Shown: positions 17,266 to 28,141, numbered from the stretch's first letter. The stretch is DNA of 28,141 nucleotides from a virus (IMGVR_UViG_3300007538_000128:1-28141), one strand, 5' to 3'. The notes: generated by a model from the letters alone, not told the origin. Made by a program: numbers and translations.

Positions 17266-17303
17266 CGGGGACAAAAGAAAACACCCGCCCTTTCGGACGG
17301 GTG
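17266..17303 (-). terminator. intrinsic terminator of the tiny-ORF operon
   Basis: CACCCGCCC-tttc-GGACGGGTG (17282-17303) forms a nine-pair stem with one mismatch. On the minus strand it is followed by TGTTTTCTTTTG. It ends transcription of the small operon at 17327-17493 before the helicase gene. Confidence 0.8.
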
Positions 17304-17326
17304 CGTTCTTGGGGGTACTTGGTTGG

Positions 17327-17374
17327 TTAGAGCAAAAACAATGCGATTACTACGCTTATTGCGAGGACGGTCAC
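17327..17374 (-). CDS. 15-residue hydrophobic micro-peptide
   Basis: A GTG start overlaps the stop of the upstream 40-residue gene (GTGA), so coupled translation is expected. The product MTVLAISVVIALFLL is entirely hydrophobic, just long enough to reach across one membrane leaflet or insert as a short helix. It ends 24 bases before a strong terminator. Two similar peptides occur at 18783-18830 and 22784-22840, which raises the likelihood that it is made. Confidence 0.4.
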   Translation of the reverse strand: MTVLAISVVIALFLL

Positions 17375-17493
17375 TTCTCAACCCCCCACGCTTCTTGCTT
17401 CCACTTGTCCCACTTCTCTTGTTTCTCAATGACCCAAGGTGCGAACACTTCGGTCAGTAGAACAGAGAGTATGAGTATCTGGTGTATCTTCAT
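17371..17493 (-). CDS. 40-residue protein with N-terminal hydrophobic segment
   Basis: MKIHQILILSVLLTEVFAPWVIEK at the N-terminus looks like a signal or membrane anchor, followed by a Trp/Lys/Glu-rich amphipathic tail EKWDKWKQEAWGVEK. GGGGAGCGAG gives a ribosome-binding site directly before the ATG. A clear promoter and a palindromic operator lie upstream and a terminator lies downstream, so this is a complete small transcription unit with the 15-residue ORF. Lysis- or membrane-related activity is a guess. Confidence 0.6.
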   Translation of the reverse strand: MKIHQILILSVLLTEVFAPWVIEKQEKWDKWKQEAWGVEK

Positions 17494-17521
17494 CTCGCTC
17501 CCCTTCTAGTAGGTACTTTCC

Positions 17522-17551
17522 AGAGTAGCGAAATGACTAGTGACTAGTCAA
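17522..17551 (-). promoter_or_regulatory. promoter of the tiny-ORF operon
   Basis: TTGACT (17551-17546), an 18-base spacer and TACTCT (17527-17522). Unlike most promoters in the array, it yields a leader of about 22 nt with a ribosome-binding site. A 17-bp palindrome covers its -35 and spacer. Confidence 0.75.
17534..17550. promoter_or_regulatory. palindromic operator overlapping the -35
   Basis: TGACTAGTGACTAGTCA is a perfect dyad of eight-base arms around one central base. It covers five bases of the -35 and eleven bases of the spacer, so a bound dimer would block RNA polymerase. No second full copy was found in the window. Confidence 0.6.
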
Positions 17552-17744
17552 GCACCTTCGTACCACTTTCGCAACTTTCAGAGAGTGACTTAGGACACTT
17601 GCGCCCCACCACCTGCTAGCCGAGTGCGTGAGGTCGCACGAACACACAGAGCGTTCACGACACGAAAGCCGAGTTCACCTTCCAGCCGACCAACTTCGCT
17701 TGATGTCCCAGACCCAGCGACGACCTGATGTCTGATGTGTTTTT
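17552..17744. other. non-coding spacer
   Basis: No gene. ACTTGCGCCCCA at 17594-17605 recurs upstream of the promoter at 25089-25100. GATGTCCCAGACCCAG near 17703-17718 resembles sequence beside the repeats at 25366 and 27379. Confidence 0.5.
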
Positions 17745-17793
17745 GGCGGGACTTCTGGGTGGCTCAGCATCTACTTTTGACGGTGGCGGATGA
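17745..17793 (+). repeat. cassette repeat, copy A
   Basis: First half GGCGGGACTTCTGGG, second half CTTTTGACGGTGGCGGATGA. It lies between the promoter of the unit at 17371-17493 and the terminator of the next unit. Confidence 0.85.
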
Positions 17794-17817
17794 GGAGTTC
17801 GCACGTTCACGGGCAAT

Positions 17818-17855
17818 AAAAAAAGGGCAGGCGCACCACTTTGGTACGCCTGCCC
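17818..17855 (-). terminator. intrinsic terminator, GGCGCACC/GGTACGCC type
   Basis: GGGCAGGCGCACC and GGTACGCCTGCCC pair around a five-base loop with a single internal C/A mismatch. Seven A on the plus strand (17818-17824) give U7 on the minus strand. It ends the gene at 17870-18211. Confidence 0.92.
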
Positions 17856-17869
17856 CTCTTTGGGGGGTA

Positions 17870-18211
17870 CTACGGGTAGCGGAGTTCGGACTTTTTGCGG
17901 AGAGTGAATGTGAGTGGGCTGTTTTCTAGTTCTTTTTCTAGTTGCCAACGAACTTTTGGCAAACAACCAAGCAGGTACTTTTGTAGTCGGGCTACGGCGT
18001 AGAGACGCATAGGAAATAGTCCGTATGCCCACTCGGGTAGTTCATCTTTCTCGTTATCAACGATGACCCAATAGGGCTTGACTTTTCCAAACTCAATGCG
18101 GTTCACTCGCTTGATGGAGTAGCGCACTTGTTTTCGGTGTAAATCATCGCCCCACTCGGGTGCGTCATCGCATTGACCGAAGTCAAGACGGGGTACGCCC
18201 TCTGTGTTCAT
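17870..18211 (-). CDS. small protein, unknown, single-gene cassette
   Basis: A 113-residue protein starting MNTEGVPRLDFGQCDDAPEWGD. The middle is basic and aromatic (RKQVRYSIKRVNRIEFGKVKPYWVIVDNE), followed by a helical segment (MRLYAVARLQKYLLGCLPKVRWQLEKEL). No family recognised. The -10 TAGGGT ends six bases before the ATG and there is no Shine-Dalgarno, so the mRNA should be leaderless. It has its own promoter and terminator. Confidence 0.75.
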   Translation of the reverse strand: MNTEGVPRLDFGQCDDAPEWGDDLHRKQVRYSIKRVNRIEFGKVKPYWVIVDNEKDELPEWAYGLFPMRLYAVARLQKYLLGCLPKVRWQLEKELENSPLTFTLRKKSELRYP

Positions 18212-18217
18212 ACCGCC

Positions 18218-18271
18218 ACCCTATCCCACTTATGCCCAAGTGTCAAGTTTTGTTTAGTGACACTTGACACA
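18218..18271 (-). promoter_or_regulatory. leaderless promoter plus upstream 17-bp site
   Basis: TTGACA (18246-18241), 17-base spacer, TAGGGT (18223-18218), then six bases to ATG. At 18255-18271, eight bases beyond the -35, lies TAGTGACACTTGACACA, an inverted copy of the TGTGT-N5-GTCAC site that is repeated four times just to the right. Confidence 0.85.
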
Positions 18272-18280
18272 ACTCTAAAA

Positions 18281-18371
18281 TGTGTCGGCAGTCACACTTT
18301 CAACCCCTGTGTCGGCGGTCACGTTTCCTGTGTCGCCCGTCACAAGAGTAAATGTGTGTCGCCCATCACAC
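18281..18371 (+). repeat. four tandem 17-bp iteron-like sites
   Basis: TGTGTCGGCAGTCACAC (18281), TGTGTCGGCGGTCACGT (18308), TGTGTCGCCCGTCACAA (18329) and TGTGTCGCCCATCACAC (18355). All have the same orientation, with start-to-start steps of 27, 21 and 26 bases. Each has weak dyad symmetry (TGTG/CACA). They resemble replication iterons or a clustered operator. Single copies sit upstream of six or seven promoters in the array. Confidence 0.8.
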
Positions 18372-18374
18372 GTC

Positions 18375-18408
18375 TGTTAGGTTCGCCTAACAGTTAGGTA
18401 CACCTAAC
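18375..18408. repeat. paired GTTAGG/CCTAAC palindromes
   Basis: TGTTAGG-ttcg-CCTAACA (18375-18392) abuts GTTAGGT-ac-ACCTAAC (18393-18408). Sixteen bases of the first recur exactly at 28104-28119, beside another promoter. They follow directly on the iteron-like sites. Confidence 0.8.
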
Positions 18409-18680
18409 GCCGACTTACTGCTAAATCAACCGGAACACCGGAAATCTCCGGACGCTGCCGCCGGCTACTCGGCTTCGTAGCGGGGCTGCGGAGCCGAACG
18501 CGGGAAGAACTCCCAGTTGCCGTCGCACGAGGGGTTGAGCAGAGGAACTTATCCAGTAAACCGTTTAGTTGCGAGCGCAACTATCCTGCTTGACCCAAAG
18601 AAGTTGCCAACATACCGAGTTGATGTCAGAAAGTCAATGTCCCAGATGGCGACGCACGCCCTTCTCGAGAAGACCTCGAG
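18409..18680. other. non-coding part of the largest gene-free gap
   Basis: No gene. It contains GACTTACTGCTAAATC (18412-18427; related copies at 19460-19473 and 25261-25274), CCGG-rich short palindromes (CCGGAACACCGG, CCGGAAATCTCCGG), and AGCGGGGCTGCGGAGCCG (18479-18496), identical over 18 bases to the first half of the repeat at 24622 but without its second half. With the iterons and palindromes to the left, it could be part of a replication origin. Confidence 0.5.
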
Positions 18681-18724
18681 AGTCCCGCGCTTTAACCTCG
18701 ACAAGGTCGACGGTGGAGGAAGAC
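18681..18724 (+). repeat. cassette repeat, degenerate copy B
   Basis: Only the second half is recognisable: GGTCGACGGTGGAGGAAGA matches GACGGTGG-GGA-GA of the family. It stands next to a terminator, as the other copies do. Confidence 0.45.
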
Positions 18725-18730
18725 GGGCAC

Positions 18731-18769
18731 AAAAAAAATCGGGCGCACCCACATTGGAGTACGCCCGAT
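18731..18769 (-). terminator. intrinsic terminator, GGCGCACC type
   Basis: ATCGGGCG and CGCCCGAT pair with an imperfect GCACCC/GGAGTA interior. Eight A at 18731-18738 give U8 on the minus strand. It ends the short transcript that starts near 18877. Confidence 0.9.
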
Positions 18770-18782
18770 TCATTCTTGCTTT

Positions 18783-18830
18783 TTAGAACAGTACGATTGC
18801 AAGCAAGACCGCAATACAGAGTGATGGCAT
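18783..18830 (-). CDS. 15-residue hydrophobic micro-peptide
   Basis: ATG to stop encodes MPSLCIAVLLAIVLF, one hydrophobic helix with a single Cys. AAGGAAG lies about ten bases upstream. It is the only ORF in a predicted transcript of about 145 nt bounded by a strong promoter and a U8 terminator, so either the peptide or the RNA itself is the product. Confidence 0.45.
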   Translation of the reverse strand: MPSLCIAVLLAIVLF

Positions 18831-18883
18831 CACAGGGCAACTTCCTTTCTGCCTTGTGGCGTTGTAGTGTTAGGTAGCGCGAG

Positions 18884-18912
18884 AGAGTACAGGACGAAAC
18901 GCGTCTTGTCAA
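18884..18912 (-). promoter_or_regulatory. strong promoter of a short transcript
   Basis: TTGACA (18912-18907), 17-base spacer and TACTCT (18889-18884). The start of transcription is expected near 18877. The -35 begins four bases after the stop codon of the gene at 18916-19152. Confidence 0.8.
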
Positions 18913-18915
18913 CCT

Positions 18916-19152
18916 CTAAACGGACTTCTCTAACTCTTTCGCAAGAATGACGAGCGAGTCGTCGTTGTGCAGGCGTTCATGGAACACAATGCGCTTGATG
19001 AGTAGGCGTACGAGCCACTTGAGTTGAGCGTTCTCCGACAGAAGGTCGTCGCGTTCAGAGTCGCGCTTTGACTTCTCCTCGTAGAACTTTGCCCAACCCA
19101 CACGGCGTGAAGCCTCAAGTCCGTGAAGGACTTGCTTGGTGGTTGTTTTCAT
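18916..19152 (-). CDS. small coiled-coil-like protein, unknown
   Basis: A 78-residue protein. Residues 20-60 are helical with Glu/Lys/Leu spacing (AKFYEEKSKRDSERDDLLSEN; NAQLKWLVRLLIKRIVF), compatible with a short coiled coil and an amphipathic helix. AGGAG lies seven bases before ATG, so it has a normal leader, unlike most genes in this array. A hairpin GGGGAAAGTCCCC sits in that leader (19164-19176). A TTGACA at 19222-19217 may be its -35, but I see no convincing -10. Confidence 0.7.
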   Translation of the reverse strand: MKTTTKQVLHGLEASRRVGWAKFYEEKSKRDSERDDLLSENAQLKWLVRLLIKRIVFHERLHNDDSLVILAKELEKSV

Positions 19153-19222
19153 GTTTCTCCTCTGGGGACTTTCCCCACCCTTAGTTGACGGATAAGAGCA
19201 GGGCTTGGTCAGTAAATGTCAA

Positions 19223-19325
19223 ATGACTTTGGACACATGGTGTTACAGCCAAACCAGGTCAGTCGAAGCAGTTCGATGTCGCAGCGGCCCGGAGAGCTCG
19301 AGCTGGGCCGGCCGGGCCTGAAGCT
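19223..19325. other. non-coding spacer rich in short palindromes
   Basis: No gene. GAGCTCGAGC, GGCCGGCC and GCTAGC palindromes lie close together at 19296-19329. GGACACATGGTGTTACA (19231-19247), nine bases from the possible -35, has dyad symmetry similar in form to the 17-bp sites elsewhere. Confidence 0.4.
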
Positions 19326-19381
19326 AGCGGGGCTCTTGAGCCGCCGAAGGCGGGTCGTCTTCTTGCGACGGTGGCAGATGA
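19326..19381 (+). repeat. cassette repeat, copy C
   Basis: First half AGCGGGGCTCTTGAGCCGCC, in which GGCT/AGCC can pair; second half CTTCTTGCGACGGTGGCAGATGA. It directly precedes the terminator of the MGYTHY gene. Confidence 0.85.
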
Positions 19382-19395
19382 CCTGTTCGGGGGAA

Positions 19396-19442
19396 TAAAA
19401 AAACCACCCCCACAACCGAGATTATTCTCGGCGCAGGGGTGG
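19396..19442 (-). terminator. intrinsic terminator with nested stem
   Basis: CCACCCC/GGGGTGG encloses an inner stem CCGAG/CTCGG. The A-run 19397-19403 gives U7 on the minus strand. It ends the two-gene operon 19469-20159. Its stem sequence is unrelated to the GGCGCACC type. Confidence 0.88.
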
Positions 19443-19468
19443 CGTGAACTCAGTCTAGCGACTTAGTG

Positions 19469-19939
19469 CTAAACAGCAACCTCTGAAAACGGGCAGTTTG
19501 CCATCTCTCCGAATACGGTCTCGTACAGTTTGCGCCCGTCTTGCCAGTCTGTTTCCCAGTCGCCGTCAGATGAGATAATCACGCACGACCCGTAGATGGA
19601 TTTGGCACGGATAAGTATCGCCGTCACCGCAGCGTCATACGGTTTCATCGCCGTCTTACAGAAGTCAAAGTAGTGTTTTTCGCCCTTACGCCATTCGGGG
19701 TGTTCGGGTATCCCAGCCCAAAAAAAGGTTTCGTGGTCTAGACCCTGACTTGCGTCACCGTTGATAGAAAAGTGGAACTCGGTGAACTCGGGTTCTCCCT
19801 CGCCCATACCGTTACGGATACGAATACCGTTGGCGTTGGCGAAGTCACACAGTCGCTTAGCGTCTAGTGCGAGTTTTGCGTAGAAGTACGCCGAGCCAGC
19901 ATTTTTTACTGGTCGGCGCACATAGTGGGTGTATCCCAT
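19469..19939 (-). CDS. MGYTHY-family conserved phage protein
   Basis: A 156-residue protein with the family opening MGYTHYVRRP, a widespread hypothetical family in phages and bacteria. Typical later elements are present: ICFDF-like YFDFCKTAMKPYDAAVTAIL and the acidic SSDGDWETDWQDGRKL. AAGGAG five bases before ATG supports this start over a longer upstream frame. It follows the gene at 19956 by 16 bases and shares its promoter. No biochemical function is known to me. Confidence 0.85.
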   Translation of the reverse strand: MGYTHYVRRPVKNAGSAYFYAKLALDAKRLCDFANANGIRIRNGMGEGEPEFTEFHFSINGDASQGLDHETFFWAGIPEHPEWRKGEKHYFDFCKTAMKPYDAAVTAILIRAKSIYGSCVIISSDGDWETDWQDGRKLYETVFGEMANCPFSEVAV

Positions 19940-19955
19940 TTTGTCTCCTTGTTGT

Positions 19956-20159
19956 TTATGCGAACCTCGGCGCACCGTGTGGTGGGCAGTCCTCGTAGGG
20001 GTTTTCGTTTCCCTCGTTGTCCTCGCAGCCGCACCAACCAAACAGCGCAACCTGAGTTTCGTGAGTGAGTTCTAGCAAGTCTCCCTGAGATGGCGAGCCG
20101 TCCAAGTCCTCTATCACGATTTTCCAAAAGTCCACGAAAAGTTGTTCGCTTTCCTTCAT
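19956..20159 (-). CDS. small acidic protein, unknown
   Basis: A 67-residue acidic protein (MKESEQLFVDFWKIVIEDLD). Two Cys and one His (GWCGCEDNEGNENPYEDCPPHG) near the C-terminus could bind a metal. The ATG follows the -10 TAAAAT by six bases, so the mRNA is probably leaderless; the coupled MGYTHY gene instead has its own ribosome-binding site. Confidence 0.72.
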   Translation of the reverse strand: MKESEQLFVDFWKIVIEDLDGSPSQGDLLELTHETQVALFGWCGCEDNEGNENPYEDCPPHGAPRFA

Positions 20160-20165
20160 ACCTAG

Positions 20166-20221
20166 ATTTTAGACACAAGTGCCCCACAAAGTCAAGTTTT
20201 GTTTTGTGTGTTTCGTCACCA
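20166..20221 (-). promoter_or_regulatory. leaderless promoter plus upstream 17-bp site
   Basis: TTGACT (20195-20190), 18-base spacer, TAAAAT (20171-20166), six bases to ATG. TGTGTGTTTCGTCACCA at 20205-20221 stands nine bases beyond the -35. Confidence 0.82.
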
Positions 20222-20288
20222 AGCCAGAAGCGGACAAGCCGTTTTGTCGCTCCTCAGCCGCCCGCCGACCAGACCAAGGGACTGAACC

Positions 20289-20344
20289 AGCGGGGCTTCG
20301 GCGGCGCAGCCGACGGGTCGTCTTCTTTTGACGGTGGCGTATGA
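20289..20344 (+). repeat. cassette repeat, copy D
   Basis: First half AGCGGGGCTTCGGCGGC, second half CTTCTTTTGACGGTGGCGTATGA. It lies upstream of the promoter of the 19469-20159 operon. Confidence 0.87.
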
Positions 20345-20543
20345 ACTCCGAAGGGTTACCTGTTTAGCCAATGGGTTTCCGAAAAGCAAGTTATTCGTAC
20401 TCGCACAATGTCTGGACTGAGTAAAAGTTTGGACTCAGCCCACATCTGGACAGCATCCACGTTCCAACTGGGACTTGACCCCAGAAGCCCCGCCATCTGG
20501 GGTCGCACGGGGACTGAGTTGCCCTTCTAGGGCGTTCGGGGGC
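20345..20543. other. non-coding spacer with inverted repeat half and hairpin
   Basis: No gene. GACCCCAGA and TCTGGGGTC (20477-20504) form a perfect nine-pair stem whose loop AGCCCCGCCA is the first half of the cassette repeat in reverse orientation. CTGAGT/ACTCAG (near 20417-20438) can also pair. A second half of the repeat is absent. Confidence 0.55.
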
Positions 20544-20580
20544 AAAGAAAAACCCCGCCGAGTGGGGGGTCTCAGCGGGG
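20544..20580 (-). terminator. intrinsic terminator
   Basis: CCCCGC (20553-20558) pairs with GCGGGG (20575-20580), and GAG/CTC pair inside. On the minus strand TTTTTCTTT follows. It ends the gene at 20587-20778. Confidence 0.85.
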
Positions 20581-20586
20581 TAATCC

Positions 20587-20778
20587 TTATTCGGGTAATG
20601 TCGTCACTCCCGAAAGGTTCCACCACAAGCGAAACGCCTGTGCGTGAACCTCACGGAGAGTTTCGGTCATCTCTTGTTCAGGGCTTGTTTCCACATAGTC
20701 CTGAATGATGTTGGCGAGTTGTTTCGCAACACTCGCTACATCCAAGAGAGTGACTGACGACTGAGTTGGCTCAGTCAT
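20587..20778 (-). CDS. small helical protein, unknown
   Basis: A 63-residue acidic protein starting MTEPTQSSVTLLDVASVAKQ. It is mostly helical (QEMTETLREVHAQAFRLWWNL). GGAGG five bases before ATG gives a normal leader. The first codons form a hairpin GACTGAG/CTCAGTC (20759-20776) that begins at the start codon and may modulate translation. It has its own promoter and terminator. Confidence 0.72.
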   Translation of the reverse strand: MTEPTQSSVTLLDVASVAKQLANIIQDYVETSPEQEMTETLREVHAQAFRLWWNLSGVTTLPE

Positions 20779-20935: not shown

Positions 20936-20989
20936 GGCGGGGCTCACGAGCGCAAACGGAACTCCTCTTCTTCTGACGGTGGTGGATGA
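20936..20989 (+). repeat. cassette repeat, copy F
   Basis: First half GGCGGGGCTCACGAGCG, second half CTTCTTCTGACGGTGGTGGATGA. It lies between two divergent promoters (20796 and 21054). The stretch to its left (20852-20935) has no gene and is rich in GTCGA/TCGAG. Confidence 0.87.
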
Positions 20990-21053
20990 CCCCACTCGGA
21001 GTTCAGACCACCTTCTCCGTCAAGCACTTATGCCAACAGTCACCTCGCCAAAG

Positions 21054-21083
21054 TTGCTTTCTGAACCACTTAGGGGATAACCT
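21054..21083 (+). promoter_or_regulatory. leaderless promoter
   Basis: TTGCTT (21054-21059), 18-base spacer, TAACCT (21078-21083), then seven bases to ATG at 21091. No Shine-Dalgarno is present. Confidence 0.75.
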
Positions 21084-21090
21084 GTCCACT

Positions 21091-21708
21091 ATGGGAACAC
21101 GGGAACTGTCGCTCAACAAAGAGACAGCCGTACTAGAGGTTGCCAAAGACTTTTATCTTCGTGAGGTCGCACCCGTAGTCGTTCCCAACGCTTGTATTCT
21201 TGCTTCACGCATAATCACGGTTGCGCTTGCGAAATACAATGTCCAATGCTGGGCTACACAAGTAGATGCCGTGTGTTGGAATAACGAGGGCTTCCGTTTG
21301 CGAAACGACCTCAATGCGTTTCGTTCTACACCTACCGCTTGGTCGGTTGGCGTGATGTCTGAACCGTCAAACCAATGGGTTCGCAACGAGCTGGAAAGTG
21401 GGAGCAACCCATTTGACCGAAAGTTCTACGGTCACTTGATTGTGGAAACACCAAATCATTTCGTTGATTTCACCGCTTCTCAGTTTGACCGTCCGGAGAA
21501 AGGTATCGTCACGGGTAGCCCGTTGATTGTGCCGAACAGCCGTCTTACTGAGGTCAAAGACGGTTGGATAGTGCCGATAGAACAGGGCGTGTATGTCTTT
21601 CGTGATGCCCAGCACCCTGCTAGCCCACAAGGAACACCCGATTGGGATACCAACTACAAGCGTGATGCGAAACGCTTGATTGAGGAACTTCGCCCGTTGC
21701 TGGGCTAG
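21091..21708 (+). CDS. possible Cys-His-Asp hydrolase/transferase-like protein
   Basis: A 205-residue protein, the largest in the cassette array. Three conserved-looking positions have the order of a transglutaminase or NAT-type triad: Cys35 in VPNACILASRIITVAL, His115 in FYGHLIVETPNHF, and Asp126 in VDFTASQFDRP. This resembles a group of bacterial hypotheticals with GHL...VDxTxxQ, but the catalytic assignment is inference. It starts seven bases after a -10 box (leaderless) and is transcribed opposite to most neighbours. Its stop overlaps the convergent zinc-finger gene by four bases. Confidence 0.78.
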   Translation: MGTRELSLNKETAVLEVAKDFYLREVAPVVVPNACILASRIITVALAKYNVQCWATQVDAVCWNNEGFRLRNDLNAFRSTPTAWSVGVMSEPSNQWVRNELESGSNPFDRKFYGHLIVETPNHFVDFTASQFDRPEKGIVTGSPLIVPNSRLTEVKDGWIVPIEQGVYVFRDAQHPASPQGTPDWDTNYKRDAKRLIEELRPLLG

Positions 21709-21890
21709 TTCAGTTTGCGGTTCGTCGGGTGACGACGTTTCGTGCTTGCGAGAGCGTCACAGACGAGATGCTGGTAGCCGACACCCCGTAGATGCTTGAC
21801 CACAGCACCTTCCGAGAGCAAATCGCTACAGTTTTCGCACGCAGTCGGCTTAGTGAGTGTTACAACAACGCCTAAAGTATTTAGTTTCAT
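21705..21890 (-). CDS. small zinc-finger protein
   Basis: A 61-residue protein. CENC (about residues 17-20), His32 in KHLRG, and HLVC (about 38-42) offer four or five zinc ligands. The C-terminus is basic (STKRRHPTNRKLN), so nucleic-acid binding is plausible. Longer in-frame starts exist (21944, 21929), but the promoter -10 TACGGT lies within that extension and ends six bases before the ATG at 21890, which makes this the leaderless start. Confidence 0.75.
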   Translation of the reverse strand: MKLNTLGVVVTLTKPTACENCSDLLSEGAVVKHLRGVGYQHLVCDALASTKRRHPTNRKLN

Positions 21891-21896
21891 ACCACA

Positions 21897-21925
21897 ACCG
21901 TAGGGAACAACAACAGGTAAGTCAA
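21897..21925 (-). promoter_or_regulatory. leaderless promoter
   Basis: TTGACT (21925-21920), 17-base spacer, TACGGT (21902-21897), six bases to ATG at 21890. Confidence 0.8.
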
Positions 21926-21997
21926 GCATTTCATTGCTGGTCAAGTTCTAACTGCCATCGGATTTCTCCTACACGCGTAGTGCTAATACCTGTTTGA

Positions 21998-22048
21998 GCC
22001 GGGGCTCTTGGGGTGGCGACAGCATCTATTTTTGACGGTGGCGCATGA
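21998..22048 (+). repeat. cassette repeat, copy G
   Basis: First half GCCGGGGCTCTTGGGG, second half ATTTTTGACGGTGGCGCATGA. It lies between the divergent promoters at 21897 and 22105. Confidence 0.82.
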
Positions 22049-22104
22049 GACCTTCGTCTGAGTTCTGCTACGGGCGCACACCATAAATGTCCGACAAACA
22101 ATGC

Positions 22105-22133
22105 TTGACTTTCATCGTTGTAGTTTGTACCAT
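22105..22133 (+). promoter_or_regulatory. leaderless promoter of the LysM operon
   Basis: TTGACT (22105-22110), 17-base spacer, TACCAT (22128-22133), then seven bases to ATG at 22141. A half-palindrome TACACCTAAC lies in the first codons. Confidence 0.8.
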
Positions 22134-22140
22134 GTAATCC

Positions 22141-22422
22141 ATGCGTACACCTAACTATTACCTAGTCCGAACCTATGTTCGTGTTGCTTTTTGGTCGCTG
22201 GTTGCCTTCGGGTTGATTTGGTTGGTCAATACTTCGGTCAGCACTTGGGACAAATACACCTGTGTTGAGACCAATGTCGTTGTTCAGCCATACGACACCA
22301 TGTGGGCTATCGCAGAGGAATACTGTGACGGCAACATTGAGGTCGCAGTAGCCGATTTGATTTCTTCTCATGGTTCGTCTATCATCATCGTTGGACAAAC
22401 TATTGAGGTGCGTAATAAGTGA
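22141..22422 (+). CDS. membrane-anchored LysM-domain protein
   Basis: A 93-residue protein. Residues about 14-32 (VAFWSLVAFGLIWLVNTSV) form one transmembrane helix after a short N-terminus with two Arg. The C-terminal 50 residues fit a LysM fold (VVVQPYDTMWAIAEEYCDGNIEVAVADLI, ending IIIVGQTIEV), which binds peptidoglycan glycans, with two Cys that could form a disulfide outside the membrane. An envelope role in the infected cell, such as exclusion or lysis support, is plausible. First gene of a three-gene plus-strand operon, leaderless. Confidence 0.85.
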   Translation: MRTPNYYLVRTYVRVAFWSLVAFGLIWLVNTSVSTWDKYTCVETNVVVQPYDTMWAIAEEYCDGNIEVAVADLISSHGSSIIIVGQTIEVRNK

Positions 22423-22787
22423 ATGAACAATACGGAATAGTAGAAGACGCTAAGCCTTTTCAGGTAATCAAGTGCGATGGTTGTGGCAACGATGTTCCGT
22501 GCTTCTCGCAGGTGAACCTTCCCGAACATGGCTTGTATCTGAAAATCGCAACGATGGACTACTACGGTGGGTTCAGCGATTTCATTGAGGAAGACCCACC
22601 CGAGTTCCTCATTTGCCACGACTGCTCTTTGACGCTTCTCACTTCATTGCCACGAATAGCGAGCAAACTGCCCAAGGGGTTACACCCTTGCGAGTTGGAC
22701 AAGCCGTGTTGCGACTATGCGTGGAAATGGACAGACGGAAATCTCCATTTTGGGAATAACGGCGAGTGGGAAATAGCCCCACAATGA
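22419..22787 (+). CDS. Cys-rich zinc-binding protein, unknown
   Basis: A 122-residue protein starting at a GTG that overlaps the LysM stop (GTGA). Three Cys groups, CDGCG (about 19-23), CHDC (about 66-69) and CELDKPCC (about 91-98), suggest one or two zinc sites. It is otherwise acidic with aromatic segments (MDYYGGFSDFIEE). No family recognised. It is coupled at its own stop to a micro-ORF. Confidence 0.75.
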   Translation: MNEQYGIVEDAKPFQVIKCDGCGNDVPCFSQVNLPEHGLYLKIATMDYYGGFSDFIEEDPPEFLICHDCSLTLLTSLPRIASKLPKGLHPCELDKPCCDYAWKWTDGNLHFGNNGEWEIAPQ

Positions 22788-22840
22788 ACAGTATCGCCTT
22801 GTCTCTCGTTATCTTTCTGATTATCTTCGTAGTTCTCTAA
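22784..22840 (+). CDS. 18-residue hydrophobic micro-peptide
   Basis: The ATG overlaps the upstream stop (ATGA) and the ORF ends overlapping the stop of the convergent gene. The product MNSIALSLVIFLIIFVVL is one hydrophobic helix. It is the third such ORF in the array, after 17327-17374 and 18783-18830; all three end a transcript. Placement after a LysM membrane protein suggests a membrane role. Confidence 0.45.
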   Translation: MNSIALSLVIFLIIFVVL

Positions 22841-23031
22841 TCAAACAGACGCTCTGTCTGATTTGGCGTGGGGCTTTCCACGCAAATACGGTGTGCGTAC
22901 CGATACAACCTGTCTATGTTCTTGATGTTGGTGCGCTTGCCCACTTCCACCCAGCAAGTTACCTGATGAAATGTCCCCGACGCATTTGGGTCTATCGGGG
23001 TTTCGCACACAACGCATTGGTAGAGGCTCAT
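22837..23031 (-). CDS. small phage zinc-finger protein
   Basis: A 64-residue protein. CVVCETPID (about 6-14) and a second pair formed by Cys26 and HRIC (about 48-51) suit one zinc. The layout CxxC...AH..C is common in small phage proteins. The frame offers ATG at 23037 and 23031. The second is chosen because it lies six bases after the -10 TAGATT, as in the other leaderless genes. Its stop overlaps the micro-ORF stop. Confidence 0.8.
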   Translation of the reverse strand: MSLYQCVVCETPIDPNASGTFHQVTCWVEVGKRTNIKNIDRLYRYAHRICVESPTPNQTERLFD

Positions 23032-23037
23032 GGTCAT

Positions 23038-23066
23038 AATCTATCAGCGGGGCTCTCGACCCGCAA
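23038..23066 (-). promoter_or_regulatory. leaderless promoter embedded in a cassette repeat
   Basis: TTGCGG (23066-23061), 17-base spacer, TAGATT (23043-23038), then six bases to ATG at 23031. The spacer contains the AGCCCCGCT half of repeat copy H, so repeat and promoter overlap only here. Confidence 0.65.
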
Positions 23067-23098
23067 CGGGGATGTCTTCTTCTTACGGTGGCGGATGA
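23046..23098 (+). repeat. cassette repeat, copy H
   Basis: First half AGCGGGGCTCTCGACCCGC, in which GCGGG/CCCGC pair; second half CTTCTTCTTACGGTGGCGGATGA. Confidence 0.87.
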
Positions 23099-23112: not shown

Positions 23113-23152
23113 AAAAAAACGGGCAGGCGCACCAACTTGGCACGCCCGCCCG
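23113..23152 (-). terminator. intrinsic terminator, GGCGCACC type
   Basis: CGGGCAGGCGCACC pairs with GGCACGCCCGCCCG around AACTT with two internal mismatches. Seven A at 23113-23119 give U7. It ends the gene at 23179-23604. Confidence 0.92.
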
Positions 23153-23178
23153 TAGTCGGGGGGAATCTTTATTGCTGT

Positions 23179-23604
23179 TTAGTAGACAGTCTCCAACTCG
23201 TCTGCGCTGGCGTAGCGAACGGTGTATCCACGCCCCATAGGTACGTCGTGGTGTGCGAGGTTCAGGTGAAGGGTGTCTCCGCTAAGGGAATAGCACAAAC
23301 GCCATTCGGCATTGACTGTCACGGCACGGATGAAGTCGTCAATCTTGTCGGCAACGAAGTGCCCACCAACTGAACGATTCCACAATGGCAAGCCGTCTAC
23401 TGCCCATACACGCTTGCCAATCTCGTTGAGAGAGGGATTGTTGTCCCACCACGCTTTGACTGCGTAGTAGAAGTTGTCTACTTGTTCATCCCAACAACTG
23501 CCATCGCAGTAGTCAAGTGGTGTGGTTGTGTCTGTTTCGGGGTCGTAGTTAGCACACGAACAAGTATTCGTGAACTCACCATCCCATTCTTGTTTGTTTG
23601 TCAT
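23179..23604 (-). CDS. Cys-rich N-terminus protein, unknown
   Basis: A 141-residue acidic protein. Four Cys near the N-terminus (NTCSCANYD and YCDGSCWDEQ, residues about 15-37) may bind zinc. The rest holds aromatic stretches (FYYAVKAWWDNNPSLNEIG; LPLWNRSVGGHFVADKIDDFI) and a beta-rich end. No family recognised. The start follows the -10 CAGAAT by six bases and opens MTNKQEW; the gene at 24755-25039 opens MTNTKKK behind a near-identical promoter. Confidence 0.77.
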   Translation of the reverse strand: MTNKQEWDGEFTNTCSCANYDPETDTTTPLDYCDGSCWDEQVDNFYYAVKAWWDNNPSLNEIGKRVWAVDGLPLWNRSVGGHFVADKIDDFIRAVTVNAEWRLCYSLSGDTLHLNLAHHDVPMGRGYTVRYASADELETVY

Positions 23605-23763: not shown

Positions 23764-23815
23764 GGCGGGGCTTCAGACCCGACGGCGACCTGTCTTCTTC
23801 TGACGGTGGCGTATG
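23764..23815 (+). repeat. cassette repeat, copy I
   Basis: First half GGCGGGGCTTCAGACCCG, second half CTTCTTCTGACGGTGGCGTATGA, the consensus form. It is preceded by a GGCGAC/GTCGCC pairing (23721-23760). Confidence 0.9.
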
Positions 23816-23828
23816 AGTTCGCAAGCAC

Positions 23829-23889: not shown

Positions 23890-24129
23890 TCACCATTTGC
23901 GCCATGAACGACCCCAGCGTGGAGAGGTGCGTCGTAGATACGAAGCGAGGCGTGGCATTATGTCGTGTATCAGTTCGGGCAGTATGACATGAACTAGCAA
24001 GTCCACAGTACGCACGAAGCGACAAGGCGAGCCAATAGGCAACCTGCTTATGGGCTTGCGTTCGGAGTGCGCCAGATTACGGACACACTCACGAACGCCA
24101 GACCCAGCGATTAGTTGCGCTACTTCCAC
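23890..24129 (-). CDS. basic protein, unknown (probable)
   Basis: A 79-residue ORF starting at GTG, overlapping the upstream gene by ten bases and ending just before a terminator, which is where a second operon gene should be. It is basic, with a hydrophobic middle (VDLLVHVILPELIHDIMPRLASYL) and a tail RRTSPRWGRSWRKW. There is no good ribosome-binding site, so it depends on coupling to the gene before it. It could instead be untranslated 3' sequence. Confidence 0.5.
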   Translation of the reverse strand: MEVAQLIAGSGVRECVRNLAHSERKPISRLPIGSPCRFVRTVDLLVHVILPELIHDIMPRLASYLRRTSPRWGRSWRKW

Positions 24130-24488
24130 GACGATAGGTCTAGGACTATCTCAGCGAGGTTGTCGCAATAGACCATAGGAGTGCGTGCCTCAACGATTTC
24201 GGTGTTTGCGTCTTTGCCACGCTTTACGAAACGGATACGGCTAACAATGTAGGTATCCGAGTAATCAAGCACCACCTCAATGCGTCGGTCATGCGTAATA
24301 GGTAATAGTGCGCCGACAGTCTCACCTTGTTCGTTGGTCAAGTGAGCAACACGCCCACCCGAAACGGCGAGCATGGTCATCATGCCGAGTTGCGCTTTGA
24401 TTTCGTCAATGTCGCAAGGGCGACCTTCACGGATTAGGGAGAGGACAGTCGCCCCTTGACGACCACCCCATGTAAGTGTTTTAGCCAT
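24120..24488 (-). CDS. small protein, unknown
   Basis: A 122-residue protein starting MAKTLTWGGRQGATVLSLI. It alternates helix (DIDEIKAQLGMMTMLAV) and strands (RRIEVVLDYSDTYIVSRIRFV), ending in an acidic segment EIVLDLSSWK. No motif recognised. A longer upstream frame is rejected because the promoter lies inside it: TACGCT ends six bases before this ATG. Confidence 0.78.
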   Translation of the reverse strand: MAKTLTWGGRQGATVLSLIREGRPCDIDEIKAQLGMMTMLAVSGGRVAHLTNEQGETVGALLPITHDRRIEVVLDYSDTYIVSRIRFVKRGKDANTEIVEARTPMVYCDNLAEIVLDLSSWK

Positions 24489-24494
24489 AGGGAG

Positions 24495-24549
24495 AGCGTA
24501 CCACTTGTACCTCAGACTGTCAAGTTTTCTTGTGTGTCTGTTGGCACGG
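24495..24549 (-). promoter_or_regulatory. leaderless promoter plus upstream 17-bp site
   Basis: TTGACA (24523-24518), 17-base spacer, TACGCT (24500-24495), six bases to ATG. TGTGTCTGTTGGCACGG at 24533-24549 stands nine bases beyond the -35. Confidence 0.83.
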
Positions 24550-24621
24550 GCAACAAGTCGCAGGTCGGACATAGCCAAGCCAGCCGTAGCGAGGAGTTCC
24601 TGCCATCTGGGGGGCGAACCC

Positions 24622-24677
24622 AGCGGGGCTGCGGAGCCGCCCAGACATCTCCTTCTTCTTCTGACGGTGGCGTATGA
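24622..24677 (+). repeat. cassette repeat, copy J
   Basis: First half AGCGGGGCTGCGGAGCCGC, identical over 18 bases to the orphan half at 18479; second half CTTCTTCTGACGGTGGCGTATGA. Confidence 0.9.
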
Positions 24678-24689
24678 CTTCGGGGGGAA

Positions 24690-24727
24690 TAGCGAAGGGC
24701 GGGCGCACCGAGTTGGTACGCCCGCCC
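24690..24727 (-). terminator. strong hairpin terminator, GGCGCACC type
   Basis: GGGCGGGCGCACC and GGTACGCCCGCCC pair around GAGTT with one C/A mismatch. The U-tract on the minus strand is poor (TTCGCTATTCC), so termination may be less efficient than at the other copies. It ends the gene at 24755-25039. Confidence 0.75.
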
Positions 24728-24754
24728 TTTAGACGGATAGGGGTCGGTTATGGC

Positions 24755-25039
24755 TTAGTTGCGCCACGCCTCCATAGCGAATAGCCCTGCGAATGGGTTT
24801 GGGTAGCCAATGGCATCGTTCGCCCAGCGTTCAGCGTCTGTGTGCTGTGTTTCGCAGTCACGGAATCGCTTTGACTTAGCGGAGATAGTTCCGCCTTCAC
24901 GGTCTTTACGAATCGTGATACCTAATGCTTTGGTGATTTGGTCGTAATCCACGATGACTGTGATAGTCGTATCAGGTGTACCCCACTCCGATACCACCCC
25001 AGTCACCGAGTATGTCGGTTTCTTTTTGGTGTTTGTCAT
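24755..25039 (-). CDS. small protein, unknown
   Basis: A 94-residue protein starting MTNTKKKPTYSVTGVVSEWG. The first half is beta-rich (DTTITVIVDYDQITKALGITIRK), followed by a charged stretch and an aromatic C-terminus (AIGYPNPFAGLFAMEAWRN). No family recognised. It is a single-gene cassette; the -10 TACCCT ends six bases before ATG. Confidence 0.77.
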   Translation of the reverse strand: MTNTKKKPTYSVTGVVSEWGTPDTTITVIVDYDQITKALGITIRKDREGGTISAKSKRFRDCETQHTDAERWANDAIGYPNPFAGLFAMEAWRN

Positions 25040-25045
25040 AGGGCA

Positions 25046-25100
25046 AGGGTAGCCCACTACTGCCCCAATGTCAAGTTATTTGAGTGTGACTTGCGCCCCA
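25046..25100 (-). promoter_or_regulatory. leaderless promoter plus upstream site
   Basis: TTGACA (25074-25069), 17-base spacer TTGGGGCAGTAGTGGGC, TACCCT (25051-25046), six bases to ATG. GTGTGACTTGCGCCCCA (25084-25100) is a diverged, inverted copy of the 17-bp site, nine bases beyond the -35. Confidence 0.82.
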
Positions 25101-25365
25101 TCGGGTTGCGAGGTTTCCGTAACTGAGCCGTCGCCTCTCCTCGTCTGGATTCCGTCGTCCCCGAAGGTCGGGAGTCCCGACACGAACGCGTTTGCCATCG
25201 AGTTTTGGCTAGTTTCCGCCGCAGCATCGACGATTTTGCTCGAGATTTGCTTCTTTTCGATTTAGCACTAAGTCTCAAACCCTTATTTTACGCCACTCGA
25301 CTTTTATTGCTTATCGAAGTTCTCCTCGAGCTGTCGCCCGCCGTCGAGCTGTCTTCTGGTGTCCC
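25101..25365. other. non-coding spacer
   Basis: No credible gene. Left part GC-rich with CCCGA/TCGGG pairing (GAAGGTCGGGAGTCCCGAC near 25162-25180), then AT-rich. TTTAGCACTAAGT (25261-25273) is the reverse complement of the sequence at 19461-19473. The right end is rich in CTCGAG/GTCGAGC. Confidence 0.5.
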
Positions 25366-25413
25366 AGCGGGGCTTCTGATGTCCCATCATCTTCTTCTGA
25401 CGGTGGCGGATGA
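25366..25413 (+). repeat. cassette repeat, copy K
   Basis: First half AGCGGGGCTTCTGATG, second half CTTCTTCTGACGGTGGCGGATGA, with a shorter middle than the other copies. It directly precedes the terminator of the operon 25486-27197. Confidence 0.9.
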
Positions 25414-25424
25414 GCAGGGGGTAG

Positions 25425-25465
25425 AAAGCAGAAAGCCCGCCACCCGAACTTGTCGGATAGCGGGC
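25425..25465 (-). terminator. intrinsic terminator with nested stem
   Basis: GCCCGC (25435-25440) pairs with GCGGGC (25460-25465), and CCGA/TCGG pair inside. On the minus strand TTTCTGCTTTC follows, a weak U-tract. Confidence 0.7.
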
Positions 25466-25485
25466 AGTCTGGAAAGGGTGTGGGT

Positions 25486-25911
25486 TTAGACGGATACCTT
25501 AGTACGCAGGTACTTGTGTTTCTTTACGGGCTTCCAAGTGGGTGTACCACCTGTCTCTACCGCCTCATACACGGATACTTCATTGTCGCCAAGCACATAG
25601 AGAAACTGCGCCCAAGCGAACTGTTTGCTGTTGTGAGTGAAGCGGTGTGGCTTCCCACCATAGGCAATACCGTACCCATAGACACGCACGAAGTCATCTG
25701 CGCCGTGCCACATCTCAGCGAGTTTGTCTGGATTTGGGTGTAGCGACGACCACTCGTGTTTCATAATGGTCTTGCGAACCTTATCCAACCCGTCACGAGA
25801 TACGAGCAATAGCAGTTCAGATACTTTTGCGTCTGGATAGCCATCCCAATGGCAGTAGCGACCTTGCCAACCGCCATTGTGAGGAACAGCGATAATGCTA
25901 CGGGTTGCCAC
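25486..25911 (-). CDS. conserved phage protein (MATRSxIAV family)
   Basis: A 141-residue protein of a hypothetical family widespread in phages, recognised by the opening MATRSIIAV followed by GWQGRYCHWDGYPDAKVSELL. It starts at GTG with AGGAAG upstream and overlaps the DUF4314 gene by 14 bases. Last gene of a five-gene operon. The C-terminus is basic (KPVKKHKYLRTKVSV). Biochemical role unknown. Confidence 0.87.
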   Translation of the reverse strand: MATRSIIAVPHNGGWQGRYCHWDGYPDAKVSELLLLVSRDGLDKVRKTIMKHEWSSLHPNPDKLAEMWHGADDFVRVYGYGIAYGGKPHRFTHNSKQFAWAQFLYVLGDNEVSVYEAVETGGTPTWKPVKKHKYLRTKVSV

Positions 25912-26098
25912 TTGCCACTTCCTCTAACAGCACGAAACTGTCCTCGCCCTCAATGAGCGAGAGAGTAGAACCGCTATCCCACTTCACATTGAGAACACGG
26001 TCTCCGAAAGCGTCGGTGAAAGAGCCTGTGACCTCTCCCTCGTCACCTGCTTTCAGGCGGGTGTATGGGTCTGATGTGTGAACTAGACGAATACGCAC
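25898..26098 (-). CDS. DUF4314 protein
   Basis: A 66-residue, single-domain DUF4314 member. The signature runs the full length: MRIRLVHTSDPYTRLKAGDEGEV, then VKWDSGSTLSLIEGEDSFVLL. The fold is a small SH3-like beta barrel and the function is not established. The start is GTG with AGGAG five bases upstream. An open frame continues upstream but overlaps the preceding gene. It lies two bases after that gene. Confidence 0.9.
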   Translation of the reverse strand: MRIRLVHTSDPYTRLKAGDEGEVTGSFTDAFGDRVLNVKWDSGSTLSLIEGEDSFVLLEEVASGNP

Positions 26099-26100
26099 GG

Positions 26101-26349
26101 CTACTCCTGCCCTTCTACTAAGAGATTTGAGAAGAAACACTTAGAAGCGGTGTGTCCAATGGTGAGCGACATACCGCATACTCCGAGTGTGTCCAGCAAG
26201 TTCATAGCCGTTAGTTCGTCAAGGCTTTCCAACTCACGGAGTTTTTCCGTGAGTTGGGTAGCCATACGCATTTGGATAGTGAGAGTTTCTTCTTCATCTT
26301 TATTGGCGAAGAAGTCCACCACATCCTGTGGGAACTGCGTTTGGTTCAC
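26101..26349 (-). CDS. small helical protein, partner of HTH gene
   Basis: An 82-residue acidic protein starting at GTG that overlaps the HTH stop (GTGA). It is helical throughout (EEETLTIQMRMATQLTEKLRELESLDELTAMNLLDTLGV). The tight overlap with a small XRE regulator recalls regulator/antagonist or toxin/antitoxin pairs, but no toxin fold is visible. Confidence 0.72.
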   Translation of the reverse strand: MNQTQFPQDVVDFFANKDEEETLTIQMRMATQLTEKLRELESLDELTAMNLLDTLGVCGMSLTIGHTASKCFFSNLLVEGQE

Positions 26350-26579
26350 TTGATACCGTCAAACAAACGCACGGGCTTCACGGACAGAGCAACGCACAGG
26401 CGAAGCAGGGTGTCCAGATTTGGCGAGAAGTGGTTGTTCTCAATGCGGTTCACGGTCTTGCGGTCAATGCCAGCAAGTTCCGCCAATGCGCCCTGAGAGA
26501 GTTCAGCGTCAATACGGAACTGACGCAAGCGGTCTGCGACCACTTTCTCCTTCTTGCTCTTGGTTAGTTTGGTTTTCAT
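26346..26579 (-). CDS. XRE/Cro-type HTH transcriptional regulator
   Basis: A 77-residue protein. A basic N-terminal arm (MKTKLTKSKKEK) is followed by a typical XRE helix-turn-helix: LRQFRIDAELSQGALAELAG (helices 1-2), then IDRKTVNRIENNHFSPNLDTLLRLCVAL. It is about the size of Cro. AGGAGAAG lies about eight bases before ATG. It is the only clear sequence-specific regulator in the array and so a candidate for binding the 17-bp sites or palindromes, without direct evidence. Confidence 0.9.
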   Translation of the reverse strand: MKTKLTKSKKEKVVADRLRQFRIDAELSQGALAELAGIDRKTVNRIENNHFSPNLDTLLRLCVALSVKPVRLFDGIK

Positions 26580-26621
26580 TGGTTATCTTCTCCTTGTTTG
26601 GTTATTGGTTTGGTATTACAT

Positions 26622-27197
26622 CTAACAGATTTGGAAACCGCCACAGGCTTTCAGGAAGTTGGCGAACTCACGGATGTTGGTAAGATTTATGGAGTAGTTG
26701 GCTTCATTGGGTTCTGTTTCACCCTTGCCATTACATCCATTACAAGTCTGAGAGATTTCGGTCTCGTCTTTGTTGATGGGCAACTTCTTGTATTTCGGAA
26801 GTTTCAGCCCGTCACCCAAGATGTCTGCCATTATGTCGTAGTCGTATGGGTTGCGAGTTTCACCCGTCTTGGTGTTCTTGTACCACAGGCGCATACCTGT
26901 CGCCATACAATGCGAACACTTGCGCTTTGGCAGAGAGTTGATGTAGTCGTTGCGCTCTTTGATGTATCGCTTTGCCGTGCCGTCTTTGAGTGCGGTGGAC
27001 AGACGCTTGCTCAACTCAACGCTGTCCAACTCATCCAAGCCGTCGCCGTCGTTTGAGTGGGCGTTTTCCACCTTTTCGCAGATTTCAGGGGCGATAGCCG
27101 AGCAAAAATCCCAGAGTGGATGCCACCACCAGATGTTGTTGCGGAAGTATTCGCCTTTTGTGCTTGTCGGGTTTTGCCCGAACACATCCATTCCCAT
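26622..27197 (-). CDS. conserved phage protein, MGMDVFGxNP/WWWxPLW family
   Basis: A 191-residue protein of a widespread phage hypothetical family. The opening MGMDVFGQNPTSTKGEYFRNN is followed by IWWWHPLWDFC, which is characteristic. Two zinc knuckles are present (CSHCMATGMRLW and CNGCNGKG), like split DnaJ zinc-finger elements. The start is the second ATG of the frame, fitting both the family start and GAAAGG about ten bases upstream. First gene of the operon ending at 25486; its promoter lies at 27231-27259. Confidence 0.88.
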   Translation of the reverse strand: MGMDVFGQNPTSTKGEYFRNNIWWWHPLWDFCSAIAPEICEKVENAHSNDGDGLDELDSVELSKRLSTALKDGTAKRYIKERNDYINSLPKRKCSHCMATGMRLWYKNTKTGETRNPYDYDIMADILGDGLKLPKYKKLPINKDETEISQTCNGCNGKGETEPNEANYSINLTNIREFANFLKACGGFQIC

Positions 27198-27230
27198 AGT
27201 AGGTATGCCTTTCGCTAGTAGGTGTACCAC

Positions 27231-27286
27231 AAGTTATCCGCTATTTCGGCTTTCGTCAAGTTTGTTTTGGGTGTCTTATGGCACAG
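27231..27286 (-). promoter_or_regulatory. promoter of the five-gene operon plus 17-bp site
   Basis: TTGACG (27259-27254), 17-base spacer, TAACTT (27236-27231). It gives a leader of about 28 nt with a ribosome-binding site, so it is not leaderless. GGTGTCTTATGGCACAG at 27270-27286 is ten bases beyond the -35. Confidence 0.82.
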
Positions 27287-27378
27287 CCCATTTGAGGTTC
27301 GCCAGCACCCGTCGTGGTTCACCGCCGGTCAGGTTCGTTCGCCGGCGTTCGCCGGAAGCCACCGGTGTCCAGACATCC

Positions 27379-27428
27379 AGCGGGGCTTCTGGGGTGGGCG
27401 CACATCTTCTTACGACGGTGGCGTATGA
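27379..27428 (+). repeat. cassette repeat, copy L
   Basis: First half AGCGGGGCTTCTGGGG, flanked by CCAG/CTGG pairing; second half CTTCTTACGACGGTGGCGTATGA. To its left (27287-27378) there is no gene, only CCGG-rich sequence with GTTCGCCGGCGTTCGCCGG direct repeats. Confidence 0.88.
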
Positions 27429-27470
27429 CGGGGGTACTACCCGACAGCACATCAGTTTCCAGACAGCACA

Positions 27471-27506
27471 AAGGGGCTGGCATACCCGAAGGTACACCAG
27501 CCCCTT
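27471..27506 (-). terminator. strong hairpin, GGTACACC variant
   Basis: AAGGGGCTGGCATACC and GGTACACCAGCCCCTT pair around CGAA with two adjacent mismatches. No U-tract follows on the minus strand (GTGCTGTCT), so it may act as a weak terminator or an mRNA 3' end stabiliser. It follows the gene ending at 27526. Confidence 0.65.
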
Positions 27507-27525
27507 GTGGGTGGGTTTTGGGGGT

Positions 27526-27744
27526 TTAGTTACCCTTGGCGAGCATTGAGCGAAGCGTCTGACGGAGAGCGTCGGCAAGAGTTCCCTTTGCCTGCCCGAA
27601 GTCAAGTACGGCTTCGTCATCACCTTGGAAACGAAGCGACGAAACCATTTGGTTCGTCTTGGTTGCGAGCGTGGTTAGACGGACACGCTTGCGTTGTGGG
27701 TGTTGCGACGGTTGGCAGTTATTTCCGTCATTGGGGCTAGCCAA
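27526..27744 (-). CDS. small protein, unknown, uncertain start
   Basis: The open frame runs from a TTG at 27744 (72 residues) and overlaps the upstream gene by 70 bases. The first ATG is at 27648 (40 residues). The part after the overlap (RVRLTTLATKTNQMVSSLRF, then GQAKGTLADALRQTLRSMLAKGN) looks coding. A frameshift product with the upstream gene is possible but no slippery heptamer stands out. Confidence 0.55.
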   Translation of the reverse strand: MASPNDGNNCQPSQHPQRKRVRLTTLATKTNQMVSSLRFQGDDEAVLDFGQAKGTLADALRQTLRSMLAKGN

Positions 27745-28016
27745 CCGACTGTCTCGCAGACAAGAGCAACTTCGTTTTCAGCCAGCGTGTGAGTAAGGGC
27801 AACATTTTCCAGACCCACATACACATCTGGGTATGCGTCTAGGTGACGAACGAAACCGTCTGCCGACAAAGCGAACATCTGAGCAGACGAACGCTCAAAC
27901 TCGTCTAGTTTCTTGACGGTTGCCAACTCTTGTAGTGCTTTCTCTGCCGAAGTCACCAATGCTTCTAGGTCTTGGTGGTTCAGGCGTTTCTTTTCTGTTA
28001 TTGGTTTTTTAGCCAC
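27675..28016 (-). CDS. small helical protein, unknown
   Basis: A 113-residue protein starting at GTG (MAKKPITEKKRLNHQDLEAL) with AAGGGAAG upstream. A basic N-terminus is followed by helices (LVTSAEKALQELATVKKLDEFERSS) and an acidic, Val-rich region (VYVGLENVALTHTLAENEVALVCETVGWL). No family recognised. It has a leader of about 23 nt and is followed in an overlapping frame by the gene ending at 27526. Confidence 0.72.
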   Translation of the reverse strand: MAKKPITEKKRLNHQDLEALVTSAEKALQELATVKKLDEFERSSAQMFALSADGFVRHLDAYPDVYVGLENVALTHTLAENEVALVCETVGWLAPMTEITANRRNTHNASVSV

Positions 28017-28045
28017 TTTACTTCCCTTCTGTGAGTGGTACTTAC

Positions 28046-28099
28046 AAGGTACAAGCAATAGCCACACAAGTCAAGTTTCTTCGTGTGACTTGCGACCAC
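28046..28099 (-). promoter_or_regulatory. promoter plus inverted 17-bp site
   Basis: TTGACT (28074-28069), 17-base spacer, TACCTT (28051-28046). GTGTGACTTGCGACCAC (28083-28099) matches the reverse complement of the iteron at 18281 at most positions and is eight bases beyond the -35. Confidence 0.82.
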
Positions 28100-28103
28100 T
28101 TCA

Positions 28104-28119
28104 TTAGGTTCGCCTAACA
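28104..28119. repeat. TTAGG-ttcg-CCTAA palindrome, third copy
   Basis: TTAGGTTCGCCTAACA is identical over 16 bases to 18377-18392. It lies five bases beyond the 17-bp site of the promoter at 28046, the same neighbourhood as at 18.3 kb. Confidence 0.75.
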
Positions 28120-28141
28120 ACCAAACCTTTCCCACAAGCCG

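Follow-up and report, generated by a model that had tools for sequence, protein, structure and literature searches.

A one-way repeat element at the edges of small-gene cassettes in a phage array, and its possible role in cassette exchange

Next to a helicase gene of a freshwater virus, small genes alternate with a repeat of about 50 nt, and the question raised by this locus is what the repeat is and whether it bounds the units in which the genes are exchanged. We analysed a virus record of 28,141 bases (IMGVR_UViG_3300007538_000128; the whole stretch is called the window), in which the array interval is 17266-28141; judged from relatives, the array begins beside the helicase gene, which ends at 17160, and continues past the window end. 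A sequence-only reading had proposed an array of cassettes sharing this repeat. The array is real: we found 11 copies of a core, TNNTNNTNYGACGGTGGYGKAWGA, with at most 1 mismatch, all on the + strand, where chance would give 2.3 matches even with 3 mismatches allowed and none of the shuffles gave 11, and the repeat pattern matches 33 other IMG/VR contigs.

15217-17160, - strand: SNF2-type helicase gene (Pfam SNF2-rel_dom, 4e-23), fixed left neighbour of the array in relatives
17747-17793, + strand: repeat unit 1, CGGGACT box and core (17778-17793)
17870-18211, - strand: cassette gene, 113 aa, no relatives found
18681-18723, + strand: repeat unit 2, divergent, with an AGTCCCG box (not CGGGGCT) and the core CGACGGTGGAGGAAGA at 18708
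18916-19152, - strand: cassette gene, 78 aa, no relatives found
19328-19381, + strand: repeat unit 3, CGGGGCT box and core (start 19366)
19469-20159, - strand: two cassette genes, 156 and 67 aa, the second related to 125793-125978 of relative G001, at another place in the order
20291-20344, + strand: repeat unit 4 (core start 20329)
20587-20778, - strand: cassette gene, 63 aa
20938-20989, + strand: repeat unit 5 (core start 20974)
21091-21708, + strand: cassette gene, 205 aa, 73% identical to relatives, always + relative to the core
22000-22048, + strand: repeat unit 6 (core start 22033)
22141-22422, + strand: cassette gene, 93 aa, whose relative in G001 comes after the HTH operon
23048-23098, + strand: repeat unit 7 (core start 23083)
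23119-23153, - strand: intrinsic terminator right of core 7, an example of the core-adjoining terminators
23179-23604, - strand: cassette gene, 141 aa, 91% identical to locus L019, in a cassette common to L019 in a different order
23766-23816, + strand: repeat unit 8 (core start 23801)
24120-24572, - strand: cassette gene, up to 150 aa
24624-24677, + strand: repeat unit 9 (core start 24662)
24755-25039, - strand: cassette gene, 94 aa, no relatives found
25368-25413, + strand: repeat unit 10 (core start 25398)
25486-27197, - strand: operon with an HTH_3 gene (26346-26579) and a 191-aa gene (26622-27197)
27381-27428, + strand: repeat unit 11 (core start 27413)

The repeat is a composite of 45-50 bp, in which a CGGGGCT/AGCCCCG box is followed by the polar box TNNTNNTNYGACGGTGGYGKAWGA. 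Across 171 nonredundant sites this conserved core stretch ends abruptly on the right, and CGGGRCT or its reverse complement AGYCCCG was found upstream at 146, mostly 25-38 bases before the core over a background of 1-2 per 20-base bin in most bins; both arms of the box are present at 27 sites. A second CGGGGCT/AGCCCCG box stands 200-260 bases upstream of the core at a minority of the 171 sites. Record G009 has one copy in frame within the helicase gene (L086:15936-17948), which has 16 residues at the insertion where relatives have 5 (11 extra residues); the DNA of these 16 residues corresponds to a 45-base element plus one codon, which fixes the repeat unit at ~45-48 bases. The core contains no dyad and has no evident partner upstream, and no inverted pair of 7-mers beside a crossover was seen at the core. 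We rejected a coding repeat, as upstream open frames are equally long in two frames and most copies contain a stop, and a replication-strand signal, as GC skew shows no fitting switch. A structured non-coding RNA on the + strand is very improbable: long perfect hairpins surround CGGGGC at ~15% of the CGGGRCT sites, but most sites have no hairpin, Rfam gave no match, and folding z-scores equal those of random windows.

A search for the repeat consensus beyond the window yielded 326 copies in 34 records, all on one strand within each record and none in reverse once the records were oriented. Arrays in relatives directly adjoin the SNF2 helicase gene, and in the two large records the copies are confined to ~20 kb of the genome. 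As an independent set, we fetched 80 loci by helicase homology alone, the repeat not being used, yielding 274 forward copies and 0 reverse copies inside arrays; the 7 reverse matches in this set represent a single chance site, to the left of the helicase, in records related to one another. The array was present in every helicase relative of at least 64% identity with a contig extending at least 1.9 kb past the gene. The next gene to the right of the core is on the - strand at 100 and on the + strand at 71 nonredundant sites, and 11 gene families were found in both orientations relative to the core, so core direction is not a consequence of gene direction. In the window, units 20974-22033 and 22033-23083 have + strand genes and their cores are still +, and relatives of the HTH operon genes (25486-27197) lie on the opposite strand relative to the core in G015 and G011 (+ in both), G013, G002 and G008.

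We found no nucleotide match of the window among 50,697 phage records and no match of the repeat in cultured phages, whose helicase relatives are at most 34% identical among the matches listed. A bacterial origin was rejected: 84,980 genomes gave 5 matches, and two of these were contigs from lake metagenome bins. The host is probably an actinobacterium, as judged from the presence in relative G001 of WhiB, the usual mark of actinophages (PMC6802176). G001 also encodes a protein of 3,915 aa that matches zeta-toxin, NUDIX, DnaJ and, several times, sigma70_r4-type HTH (L060:6675-18422), as well as an AAA_5 ATPase paired with a protein of 532 aa that has a VWA-like DTSGSMS motif (L062:12961-15296), a pair conserved at the right end of the arrays. 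Outside the array, the window has three tRNA genes (Met, Val and Ile-TAT, at 49-197 and 12747-12819), a B12-dependent ribonucleotide reductase and a DUF932 gene.

The array genes had been taken for ORFans, which did not hold for most of them, as all but three of the called genes have relatives in other arrays of the clade. Tiny hydrophobic ORFs of 15-18 residues (e.g. MNSIALSLVIFLIIFVVL), at 17327-17374 (-), 18783-18830 (-) and 22784-22840 (+), are possible micropeptides, read by eye. The order proposed for the units was borne out for most of them, which, read on the - strand, run promoter, gene or genes, terminator, core, spacer and next promoter, but not for the two units with + genes. Shared control parts were recovered to some extent: of the clade's 153 leftward genes, 61 have a common CTTGAC -35 upstream, against 7 on the other strand, and the array holds a modest excess of terminators (18 vs 12.3 by chance), but a generic promoter scan gave no excess (6 vs 5.8 by chance). 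The core often follows the 3' end of a gene and is mostly 50-250 bp from the next start. A sigma-70 promoter reading of the core itself was rejected in the window's clade: no -10 follows it, TAnnnT being present after the core at less than 6% of the 171 sites at every offset, which is background or below.

The same genomic place looks different in sister clades. Helicase relatives of at most 63% identity lack the window-type array, and several sister loci carry other, mostly one-way repeats (TTTGGAAATTTGGTATC, TTTTGTAAATCTGATATC, TTTGTATCTGACCTGTG, TTGGTTTCTGATA, TAGACATTTGTTGTA). At five sister loci TAnnnT stands at one fixed offset in 86-95% of copies, which identifies these repeats as sigma-70-type promoters; in some, a ribosome-binding site follows. 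In most of them the same CGGGGCT/AGCCCCG box lies upstream, frequently near -19, -29, -39 or -49, an apparent phasing. Clade-specific promoter repeats were seen at L173, L177, L183, L180, L162 and L174. In L183, 9.6 kb to the right of the helicase, a near-core (TGACGGTGGCGGAAAG) stands directly upstream of the clade's promoter box, and core and promoter box may therefore be separate elements.

The locus had been likened to the mobile cassettes of T4-type phages, the PeSL/PeMob promoter/stem-loop units (Arbiol 2010; Comeau 2014, via PMC4503421). Like these, the array has a repeated regulatory unit between small variable genes, with modular shuffling in which left, but not right, block edges tend to fall at the unit, and the likeness extends in the sister clades to a unit made of box and promoter, complete with a -10. 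The window's clade differs: its unit has no -10, its direction ignores the genes, each cassette has its own promoter and terminator, and sequence and host group are unrelated. The shared unit of this clade is a directional site marking cassette edges and not a promoter, so T4-like shuffling is supported in part. The SAS/ESAS motifs of Cluster K mycobacteriophages are likewise short, asymmetric, mostly in one direction and beside unrelated genes, and about half have an inverted repeat upstream; unlike the core, SAS lie directly upstream of start codons, and the sequences differ (PMC3203893).

Among relatives, whole cassettes differ in order and content. By interval clustering, cassettes 14-20 in G008 stand as 20-14 in G013, L019 has the order 4-9-59 and the window 2-x-59-4, and cassette 10 has differing contexts in G001 and G015. 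With gene families lettered by their order in G001 (A-B-C-D-E-F-G), the window reads D-A-F-B-C-E-G, a common backbone with two units displaced. Identity ends within the core in the near-identical genomes G001/G004 and L014/L015, and 29 site pairs share only the left side and 54 only the right side (redundant pairs included). Using blocks of at least 84% identity and 2000 shuffles, we found left block edges at cores in 7 of 35 cases against 0.87 expected, a value reached by no shuffle, and right edges in 2 of 35, which is not significant. A replicate with the new loci against each other and five earlier records gave 4 of 33 left edges (0.83 expected, p=0.019) and 0 of 28 right edges (not significant). 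Right edges usually lie in the variable spacer, 100-350 bases short of the next core, and together with the left-edge enrichment this indicates that the moving unit starts at the core; either its other end is mostly not a core, or the spacer changes so quickly that a core end is masked. A block edge could also be mimicked if the spacer to the left of each core diverges rapidly. The proposal that repeats and terminators supply homology for exchange, with breakpoints falling at them, thus agrees with the variable order and content and with the left edges; it is not supported by the right edges or the backbone common to the window and G001, nor as regards terminators as recombination sites.

Neighbouring cores are almost never less than ~640 bp apart, with exceptions in a few short intervals of G014 and G012, and the 35 distinct spacings of the second set are all at least 681. 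Single-gene cassettes shorter than 640 bases number 2 of 58, where shuffling coding and non-coding lengths predicts 17. The longer the coding part, the shorter the non-coding part (rho -0.71); genes were called with a hexamer model made for this analysis, and missed small genes could inflate this relation but leave the floor unaffected. Sister-clade motifs can lie just 231 apart, which makes the floor a feature of the window's clade.

What acts at the core can be weighed against several known systems. A serious but doubtful alternative is a directional transcription roadblock or stoperator-like operator array, in which a regulator stops RNA polymerase from one side and exchange is a by-product. 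The stoperator of Cluster A mycobacteriophages is a 13-bp site, GGTGGMTGTCAAG. Like stoperators, which are asymmetric, numerous and direction-dependent (PMC9283540), the core is an asymmetric, mostly intergenic site in many copies and of fixed direction, and shares GGTGGC with them, a weak likeness (p 0.03-0.08, uncorrected). Two right-end sites carry TTGACG...TATACT, where the core doubles as -35, and a conserved protein of 127 aa that combines an HA domain with a sigma70_r4-like HTH is encoded in the array in 14 records of the window's clade; both would suit a roadblock. A search for a single-subunit RNA polymerase gave no match, though the positive control was also missed. However, Cluster A stoperators follow transcription, span the whole genome and have a known immunity repressor, whereas core direction is indifferent to the 100 - and 71 + neighbouring genes. 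The HA-HTH protein also occurs in sister clades with an invariant recognition helix, LSRQRVHQI; as the CGGGGCT box is common to all clades and the polar box varies by clade, this protein is a candidate for binding the CGGGGCT box rather than the core. Integron-like mobility, in which an enzyme would recombine DNA at the core, cutting out cassettes and inserting them in a single orientation, is unlikely. Integron cassettes and CALINs in phages (PMC9892861) are also small-gene cassettes bounded by same-direction sites, and direct repeats with a fixed site direction and free gene direction, a crossover region within the core, the solo copy inside the helicase gene and the rarity of short cassettes, as if a minimum circle size applied, all fit this reading. 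But no tyrosine recombinase (PF00589; controls positive) or serine recombinase was found in 21 records, most of them fragments, including those of 160 and 138 kb, nor was an integron integrase; the core lacks a dyad, right edges are not at cores, the cassettes have their own promoters, and sister clades have a promoter at the equivalent place.

Decidedly unlikely are localized single-strand nick sites as in T5, phiKMV-like phages and tf, at which a phage nickase would cut one strand per core and nicks would promote exchange. In phage tf, 14 of 14 nick sites (TACT/RTGMC) lie on one strand regardless of gene direction, crowding the early half (PMC3517423), and the cores are similarly one-stranded in 326 and 274 copies, independent of gene direction and dense in the small-gene region. 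The smallest tf spacing, 721 bp, compares with ~640 at cores, HNH nuclease domains were matched in both large genomes, and TNYTNYGAC at -5..+3 fits the tf motif (p 0.02-0.05, uncorrected), a weak likeness found after several motifs were tried. The nick motifs of T5 and phiKMV show no likeness to the core. Unlike nick sites, the core is longer, bipartite and at cassette boundaries, and tf sites have no CGGGGCT box. Three mapped nick sites of tf (L111) coincide with annotated start codons (TACT/ATGAC or TACT/GTGAC). PeSL units, stoperators, SAS/ESAS, phage integron cassettes and nick sites each match the array in part and none in full. A further reading, tentative and still on the doubtful side, is that DNA is actively processed at the core in one direction (nicking or recombination by a new phage enzyme), which would generate cassettes and space them at least ~640 bp apart, a cassette system operating without an integron integrase.

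We favour, with a probability of roughly 0.55, a hypervariable locus of large freshwater phages in which small genes are held as cassettes bounded by a directional 45-50 bp element and exchanged by recombination. In this explanation the element is the CGGGGCT/AGCCCCG box plus the polar box GACGGTGGYGKAWGA, one copy bounding each cassette, and it builds on the element itself, its fixed direction and genomic address, the reordering of cassettes and the one-sided enrichment of block edges. A phage protein may bind the element and act in one direction, and the element may be related to the promoter-plus-box element that sister clades have at the same places, or may stand in for it functionally. 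Homologous recombination between cores of co-infecting phages would insert, remove or swap whole cassettes, and elements would not be inverted, since each cassette begins with this element pointing one and the same way. This would work like T4-type PeSL cassettes, except that in the window's clade the shared unit is no promoter and each cassette would bring its own promoter and terminator. Against the exchange reading stand the right-hand block edges away from cores and the window/G001 backbone, and homologous recombination alone does not explain the ~640 bp floor or the copy inside a gene.

The organisation of this locus is real and has been little noticed, and shuffling with one edge at a directional element is supported. 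For the long-standing question of how phages put together and rearrange their accessory genes, this locus offers a fixed address in a widespread freshwater phage group, with countable cassettes, a defined boundary signal and a different signal there in sister clades, so that gain, loss and movement can be scored junction by junction. The one-way direction regardless of genes, together with the spacing floor, points to a DNA process that has a direction and would escape standard annotation.
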